This document shows, piece by piece, positions 10,103-11,354 of a DNA stretch of 35,997 nucleotides. Position 1 is the first letter of the stretch, and each line of letters begins with the position of its first letter. The stretch spans positions 1 to 35,997 of the forward strand of contig WQYG01000008.1 of the NCBI GenBank assembly GCA_009781395.1, given 5' to 3'. This DNA is from Candidatus Bathycorpusculum sp. GTDB lineage: Archaea; Thermoproteota; Bathyarchaeia; Bathyarchaeales; Bathycorpusculaceae. The position numbers were made by a program, and so were the translations under genes. The notes under the pieces were generated by a model. It was not told the origin of the DNA, did not search any database, and saw only the letters and a program-made list of their open reading frames with translations.

Positions 10103-10488
10103 CTCAACTTCAATATTTACATAATGATGCAGCTAAGCACACGCAAAACAGCACCACCTTCTATAAACTGTCCTATATATCAGCTTTCGCCAACTACACC
10201 AAGTATTTCCATAAACCCACCACAAAACCCCAACACCAAAAAAGAAACAGAACTACCAAATTAATAAACAAGAAATAGAAAAAGCAAGTGAGAAATTAAT
10301 TATGAAAATGATTTGCCCTATCGGCGATATAAAAGGAAGATTACAACAAAGAGGAAACAGCAGACGAACACAACAGTATATGGGACGTAAAGAAGGAAAG
10401 CGTATCTATTCTCGTCACAAAATGGACTTACTTGGACATACACCAATGGACGTAAAAACCCTCAAATTGAACTTTAAAAATGGAAGAG
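10103..10488. other. Gap between ATPase and tRNA-Arg; candidate ATPase promoter
   Basis: On the minus strand TGATATATAGGA (10171-10182) and TTTATAG just downstream are TATA candidates for the ATPase, which would then have a leader of roughly 40-50 bases. The plus strand has an open frame from 10302, but it runs into the antisense of the tRNA gene and I do not accept it. A short run of Ts on the minus strand (A-run at 10476-10480 on the plus strand) follows the tRNA 3' end and probably terminates it. I see no other gene. Confidence 0.4.
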
Positions 10489-10596
10489 TGGCGGACGAGG
10501 AGGGATTTGAACCCTCGACCCCCAACTTAGGAGGCTGGTGCTCTATCCGTGATTGTTGATGGTTACAGCAATCAATCCGTACTGAGCTACTCGCCC
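10489..10596 (-). tRNA. tRNA-Arg (anticodon CCU) with a D-loop intron and encoded CCA
   Basis: Read on the minus strand from 10596: acceptor GGGCGAG pairs with CTCGTCC (one G-U), then TA, D-stem GCTC/GAGC, anticodon stem CCAGC/GTTGG with loop CTCCTAA (anticodon CCT), variable loop GGGTC, T-arm GAGGG-TTCAAAT-CCCTC, discriminator G and an encoded CCA at 10491-10489. All arms fold only if about 30 extra bases in the D-loop are removed; the mature tRNA is then 78 nt including CCA. It would read AGG codons. A TTATAAC sequence at 10632-10638 upstream may be its TATA box, and a T-run follows the gene. Confidence 0.9.
10545..10580 (-). other. 30-nt non-canonical tRNA intron in the D-loop
   Basis: The hexamer ACGGAT occurs at 10580-10575 and again at 10550-10545 (minus strand), exactly 30 bases apart. 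Removing one 30-base register leaves a normal D-loop AGTACGGATA containing the conserved GG. The repeat makes the exact cut ambiguous within this interval. The insert can fold: GATTG pairs with CAATC and the following TTG with CAA, one A bulging. Archaeal tRNA introns outside position 37/38 are known, cut by the splicing endonuclease at relaxed bulge-helix motifs. I could not fit a strict 3-4-3 bulge-helix-bulge by eye. Confidence 0.75.
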
Positions 10597-10826
10597 ATTT
10601 TTTATGATCAACACCAGTAGAGGCATTGGGTGTTATAACTTTAACGTTTAACTTGGAGAACAGTATAACTTGGATTTGTCTAACAGATTTTGCAGGAGGT
10701 TTGTTGAGCATGTTATTTGACCACCGTGAATATGTAGTAGTGTAAAATTGTGCAATTTATTTGTTGAAGCGTAAGACAAAAATAGTGTTACGCCTATTGA
10801 AGCGTGTATTTTTCATTGGTGAGTTT

Positions 10827-11354
10827 ATGCTTAAAGATTTCAATTTGATAGCGACCACGGTTCGAGGTAATGAGCGTGCTATGATTAACGAGATTTTGTT
10901 TTTGTTAAAAGATCATCTGGGTGATCAAGAAGCAGCTGCGGTTAAGACGGGTGTACGGGGGATCGTTGTTGCTAGGACAAGTTTGAATCCTTATGTGGTT
11001 GTGGAGAAACTTTATGGTTTGCTTAGTGAGCGCCCGTATGAGTTTCGGTTTGCGTTGCGCATTATTCCAATTGAGTGTGTTGTACCAACTGATTTAGAGT
11101 TGATAAAGCAGGCGTGTTTGAAACTTGCATTGCGCATTGGAGAGGGGGAAACTTATCGAATTACTGTTGAGAAACGGTATACTATGCTTCATTCAATGGA
11201 CATTATTTCTGCGGTTGCTGCTGAGGTGGAGCGTAAAGCAGATATGGAAAGCCCAGATAAAATTTTGCTTATTGAAATTATGGGTGCTGTGACAGGGATT
11301 TCGTTGATTAAGCCCAGAGAGATTATATCTGTTATGAAGGAGAAAATGATTTAA
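10827..11354 (+). CDS. THUMP-domain protein, TAN1-like (tRNA modification)
   Basis: A 175-residue protein from the start chosen here. The sequence follows archaeal TAN1-like THUMP proteins: an N-terminal domain (LIATTVRGNERAMINEI) and a THUMP domain in the second half (ELIKQACLKLALRIGEGETYRITVEKR, then the DIISAVAAEVERKADMESPDKILLIEIMG strand-helix pattern, described here by segments). In eukaryotes Tan1 acts with an acetyltransferase to form N4-acetylcytidine at position 12 of tRNA-Ser and tRNA-Leu; the archaeal protein is presumed to bind tRNA similarly. The frame is open from 10761, but GGTGA at 10818-10822 sits properly before the ATG at 10827. It lies beside a tRNA gene and converges on the Cgi121-like gene, overlapping it by four bases. 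Confidence 0.75.
   Translation: MLKDFNLIATTVRGNERAMINEILFLLKDHLGDQEAAAVKTGVRGIVVARTSLNPYVVVEKLYGLLSERPYEFRFALRIIPIECVVPTDLELIKQACLKLALRIGEGETYRITVEKRYTMLHSMDIISAVAAEVERKADMESPDKILLIEIMGAVTGISLIKPREIISVMKEKMI

Follow-up and report, generated by a model that had tools for sequence, protein, structure and literature searches.

A probable protein-spliced intron in the D-loop of tRNA-Arg(CCU) in Bathycorpusculum-group Bathyarchaeia

The window, by which we mean the whole stretch of 35,997 nucleotides that was analysed, lies in contig C8 of the 2.13-Mb genome of a termite-gut archaeon (G000; 163 contigs, completeness 94.7, contamination 2.5), for which the closest named relatives are Ca. Bathycorpusculum MAGs within the Bathyarchaeia, members of which have been described from the termite gut (PMC7886697). 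Read directly, the minus strand from 10596 to 10489 is a tRNA-Arg(CCU) gene whose D-loop is split by 30 nt (10574-10545), and its reverse complement consists of the 5' exon GGGCGAGTAGCTCAGTACGGAT, the intron TGATTGCTGTAACCATCAACAATCACGGAT, and the 3' exon AGAGCACCAGCCTCCTAAGTTGGGGGTCGAGGGTTCAAATCCCTCCTCGTCCGCCA. The features of the locus are as follows, with slashes in the motifs standing for predicted cuts.

10489..10596, minus strand: tRNA-Arg(CCU) gene, unspliced, with encoded CCA (direct reading; ARAGORN on the spliced form; RF00005, 30.9 bits)
10575..10596, minus strand: 5' exon, positions 1 to 20a (register set by 25 genes)
10545..10574, minus strand: 30-nt intron between 20a and 21 (register comparison; homologous intron in 8 genomes)
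10489..10544, minus strand: 3' exon, position 21 to CCA (register comparison; ARAGORN)
10529..10531, minus strand: anticodon CCT (ARAGORN call of the spliced form)
10577..10580, minus strand: 5' strand of the central helix, ACGG, pairing with 10547-10550 as A.G, C-G, G-C, G.A
10547..10550, minus strand: 3' strand of the central helix, ACGG
10574..10576, minus strand: 5' bulge AU/U, predicted cut after the second base
10544..10546, minus strand: 3' bulge AU/A, predicted cut after the second base
10566..10573, minus strand: 5' strand of the intron hairpin, pairing with 10551-10558 around a 7-nt loop
10551..10558, minus strand: 3' strand of the intron hairpin
10302..10558, plus strand: short ORF reading into the tRNA 3' end from the opposite strand (position and direction compared with the L151 element)
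10761..11354, plus strand: THUMP-domain gene adjoining the tRNA, used as synteny anchor (Pfam THUMP; orthologues beside the intron-bearing tRNA in L031, L032, and L034)

Removal of the intron leaves a complete cloverleaf with encoded CCA and the D-loop AGUACGGAUA, and ARAGORN calls the joined exons as a 78-nt tRNA-Arg(cct); together with the retention of the insert in relatives, this bears out the 30-nt D-loop intron put forward in the original prediction, which had also suggested that the gene could escape standard gene finders. It does: the unspliced gene receives no call from ARAGORN in default mode and is miscalled as tRNA-Ile(gat) once anticodon-loop introns are permitted. The Rfam tRNA model RF00005 scores the gene at 30.9 bits in a search of the genome (gathering score 29) and gives no match in a scan of the window. 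The archaeal mode of tRNAscan-SE 2.0 looks for introns of this sort (PMC8450103). The encoded CCA, which had been taken to add to the unusualness of the gene, is present in most tRNAs of this genome and adds nothing of the kind.

To place the insert among relatives, we used the 3' exon to search the genus (32 genomes) and the family (91 genomes) and then read the loci. An insert of 29-67 nt, always in one position of the D-loop, was found in 25 genes, namely the window gene and 24 related ones; the window's own clade has it in all nine recovered genes, and an intron homologous to the 30-nt sequence occurs in eight genomes. At the locus marked by the THUMP gene, L031 and L034 carry a 30-nt insert of the window's sequence family, and in L032 this site is occupied by another insert, of 54 nt and different sequence. 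Intronless tRNA-Arg(CCU) genes, in which the D-loop is ordinary, are found both in the genus (G008, G014, G021, G022, G023, and G029) and outside it (G033, G034, G035, G051, G058, G063, G070, G072, and G082). Three genomes, G007, G009, and G032 (L066, L069, and L112), have an intron of 28-30 nt between positions 9 and 10 of this tRNA, with a central helix of CGAG with CUCG in G007 and G009; 9/10 is not among the positions named in the text of PMC4090602. In G016 the insert lies in the anticodon loop, the gene of G015 is broken by a contig end, G005 has a 3' fragment only, and the 3'-exon search found no tRNA-Arg(CCU) in G017 or G025.

Other tRNA genes were observed with inserts as well. Wherever a tRNA-Leu(UAA) gene was found in the genus, it too nearly always had an insert in its D-loop (L153, at G000:C4:19406-19468 and upstream; L152-L173, L175, and L176), with a hairpin such as GGTG..CACC and AT/A at both ends; this appears to be a further D-loop intron of the type seen in tRNA-Arg(CCU). 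A tRNA-Trp(CCA)-like gene has a long intron at the anticodon loop (L123:896-1033, G000:C13).

The hexamer ACGGAT is repeated on both sides of the intron, and the register is open from the window gene alone, as the original prediction had stated in calling the splice site ambiguous. The relatives settle it. We moved both cut points jointly from -6 to +6 (13 registers) in the 25 genes, and register 0, after U20a and before A21, gave one consistent mature tRNA in 25 of 25, against at most 11 at any other register. The central helix has a mean of 2.68 of 4 pairs at register 0 (at most 1.96 elsewhere) and the intron stem a mean of 5.52 of 6 (at most 3.2 elsewhere), and 8 or more of the 10 pairs form at register 0 in 20 of the 25 genes and at the other registers in none. 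Because relatives in which the intron 3' end departs from the perfect repeat (ACGTAG, ACGTAA, ACGCAA, CCGCAG, or ACGGAC), those of L034 and L061 among them, share the single consistent register 20a/21, the splice site is not ambiguous. The repeat itself follows in part from the splice motif. The central helix has two Watson-Crick pairs, formed by CG opposite CG; since this dinucleotide is its own complement, the intron end must repeat the CG of the exon. Elsewhere in the hexamer the letters differ from one relative to another. A consistent register in a D-loop insert across 25 genes also fits the earlier proposal of a non-canonical archaeal tRNA intron.

At this register, and at no other of the 13, a relaxed bulge-helix-bulge motif forms. 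The bulges across the 25 genes read AU/N and NN/A, fitting the 3-nt bulge form. In the window gene two of the four central-helix positions hold standard pairs, these two Watson-Crick pairs lying between purine-purine mismatches; in 17 of the 25 genes the count is three of four. The description of the motif as weak was thus apt. A strict bulge-helix-bulge with four standard pairs was also sought; it is absent at the relatives' register, and none was found by hand at neighbouring registers of the window gene. In a shuffle test with ten introns, each representing a different sequence group, the intron stem had 5.5 of 6 pairs, compared with 2.5 for shuffled introns (SD 0.37, maximum 3.9, 5000 shuffles). 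In the eight homologous 30-nt introns, 81% of cells are paired at the structure and at most 50% when it is slid; covariation in these eight did not rise above a column-shuffle control because they vary too little, and we make no claim of formal covariation.

The genome has two EndA-family genes that score above the PF01974 cut-off, both also above that of TIGR00324, and it encodes RtcB. One EndA subunit aligns best with catalytic subunits of the Sulfolobus/Aeropyrum type, and the regions of the catalytic motif, GPGVEHAPY and VRKRF, are preserved in it. The other aligns with the M. jannaschii enzyme, with DKEHSVY opposite GKDSASY and HSVRKK opposite QNQKKE, and on this alignment, with residues judged by eye, lacks the catalytic His and Lys positions. 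The solved structures used in these alignments are presumably those of the organisms just named. A catalytic and a non-catalytic subunit, as the alignments indicate, is the arrangement of an (alpha-beta)2 enzyme. Subunits for a two-subunit endonuclease, one of the two types that the original prediction had proposed to look for, are accordingly encoded, and relaxed specificity of the enzyme is predicted, enzymes of this type being tolerant of relaxed motifs (PMC4090602; PMC7714728; PMC12397907).

From gene structure, register, and enzyme genes, which are all seen directly, we infer how cutting and joining would proceed. The precursor would fold so that the D-stem is preserved and the D-loop extends into a hairpin, the foot of the hairpin being the relaxed bulge-helix-bulge (AU/U, a four-position central helix, and AU/A). 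The (alpha-beta)2-type EndA would cut in both bulges, and RtcB would join the exons into an ordinary tRNA-Arg(CCU). We therefore regard the insert, with high confidence, as an archaeal tRNA intron that is removed by protein enzymes from a non-canonical position.

Among other explanations, the one that survives best is that the gene is a pseudogene, disrupted when a short sequence was inserted or duplicated in tandem, its work being done by another copy. The direct repeat around the insert would suit such an origin, and the assembly does contain a second, intact and intronless tRNA-Arg(CCU), called by ARAGORN on the 3.6-kb contig C136 (L122, G000:C136), which is part of what the original prediction had named as grounds for doubt. 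The copy exists, but the contig very probably belongs to another species. Its 5S rRNA is 97-99% identical to those of G012, G020, G022, G023, and G029, which belong to another sub-clade. Against the other two 5S copies in the genome the identity is 90-91%, and these two are themselves 99-100% identical to that of G031. The contig's tRNA-Arg(CCU) is identical to the tRNA of intronless species. Because its 5S rRNA belongs to another sub-clade, we judge C136 to be foreign, most likely contamination from another species of the genus, and we reject its tRNA gene as a functional replacement; an IS-like part of the contig is widespread in the genus and so does not decide its membership. Most related genomes, moreover, have no other complete CCU gene, and in 24 relatives the insert sits at one position with intact exons and a constant excision register, which makes the pseudogene reading very improbable. 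A tRNA-Arg(UCU) gene is present on contig C14, and since AGG is also readable by that tRNA, the tRNA-Arg(CCU) gene need not be essential.

We give almost no credence to a tRNA that functions unspliced, its D-loop hairpin simply being larger than usual. That hairpin is stable, with z at -3.54 over the whole transcript, but the insert varies freely in length (29-67 nt) and sequence while the exons and the cut-site motif are kept, it interrupts the D-loop directly behind G18-G19 in the standard numbering of tRNAs, and the D-loop of intronless orthologues is ordinary. Equally far-fetched is a mobile palindrome with a target-site duplication and no relation to splicing, for although a palindrome does sit between 6-bp direct repeats, the repeat is imperfect in many relatives, the genome has no further copy at up to 3 mismatches, and across the 32 genomes the family is confined to tRNA-Arg(CCU) genes with the exception of one 3-mismatch hit in G024.

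For the D-loop intron, a ValRS tree built from 46 genomes requires eight state changes, six of which are forced by well-supported branches. Intron families A, B, and C, grouped partly by eye, each occur in two separate, strongly supported clades and need four changes on this tree against a minimum of two, evolution being read here from one gene tree. The THUMP locus has family B in G002 and family A in G000, G031, and G028. These distributions point to families being replaced or exchanged at one site. A transposed sequence was also considered as the nature of the intron and rejected, no other copy having been found; family A introns were not found in other tRNAs. Position 20a/21 of tRNA-Arg(CCU) in this family might be a site where the intron of one species can be swapped for, or displaced by, the complete and dissimilar intron of another. 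Gene conversion or horizontal gene transfer of the tRNA would be the route, perhaps assisted by integrative elements that insert at this tRNA; we offer this proposal tentatively and consider it less probable than not.

The same tRNA gene is an integration target in relatives. In G062 (L151:3077-12400) a stretch of about 9 kb lies between a 3' fragment of tRNA-Arg(CCU) and the intact gene; it starts with an ORF matching PF16795, an archaeal phage integrase family, and ends with an ORF running into the tRNA, and it is apparently an integrated element whose integrase gene is split at the attachment site. Three further loci (L085, L086, and L118) have 3' fragments of the gene that start at the anticodon loop. 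In G024 (L230 and L078) the 5' half with its intron is joined to other sequence at the anticodon loop and the full gene is on another contig; the pair perhaps represents occupied and empty sites within one population. At L050 (G000:C3:50985-51030) we noticed part of a tRNA-Arg(GCG), its 3' portion beginning at the anticodon loop, which is a possible attachment-site relic.

Short ORFs with an RGNS..HY motif were observed directly 3' of tRNA-Arg(CCU) and tRNA-Arg(UCU), reading into the tRNA (10302-10558 in the window; L003 and L179), and an ORF related to that of the window flanks the tRNA-Arg(UCU) gene on C14. These ORFs matched no family, and Pfam and PHROGs gave nothing reliable for the window's ORF; we infer from its placement that it may be an integrase relic, since in position and direction it resembles the N-terminal piece left when integration splits an integrase gene.

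Introns at 20/21 are among the non-canonical archaeal positions already listed (PMC4090602) and relaxed motifs have likewise been described for archaea, so the type is known and its presence here is not surprising; contrary to the earlier view, such an intron is not very unusual, and tRNA-Leu(UAA) of the genus has a D-loop insert too. The present intron shares with the published 20/21 introns the D-loop position, predicted splice sites of bulge-helix-bulge type, and a lineage with a two-subunit endonuclease, and differs in its host group (Bathycorpusculum-group Bathyarchaeia), its tRNA (Arg(CCU)), and a very relaxed central helix with two standard pairs in the window copy. Thermoproteales tRNA introns occupy many positions and undergo transposition (PMC4090602, PMC3218864), and as there, several positions in one tRNA are used among relatives and turnover is rapid; here, in contrast, no copy of the present intron was found in another tRNA, and different families occupy the same site. 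The tRNA-Thr(GGU) locus of Caldiarchaeum (PMC3293823) is likewise a tRNA gene that gains introns and serves as an integration target, whereas in our case the duplicated fragments span the anticodon loop to the 3' end and the D-loop intron stays with the host 5' half. In the literature searched we found no description of tRNA introns from this Bathyarchaeia lineage. The fresh points are that introns turn over at a single site, that the intron families do not follow the gene tree, that relatives have introns at 9/10, and that the tRNA is used as a target of integration.

For annotation, a finder built for ordinary tRNAs misses this tRNA-Arg(CCU) gene or assigns it the wrong amino acid. For evolution, closely sampled genomes allow intron gain, loss, and replacement to be traced at a single tRNA site, in a gut lineage of Bathyarchaeia where at least two tRNA genes appear to retain D-loop introns whose splice motifs are very weak.
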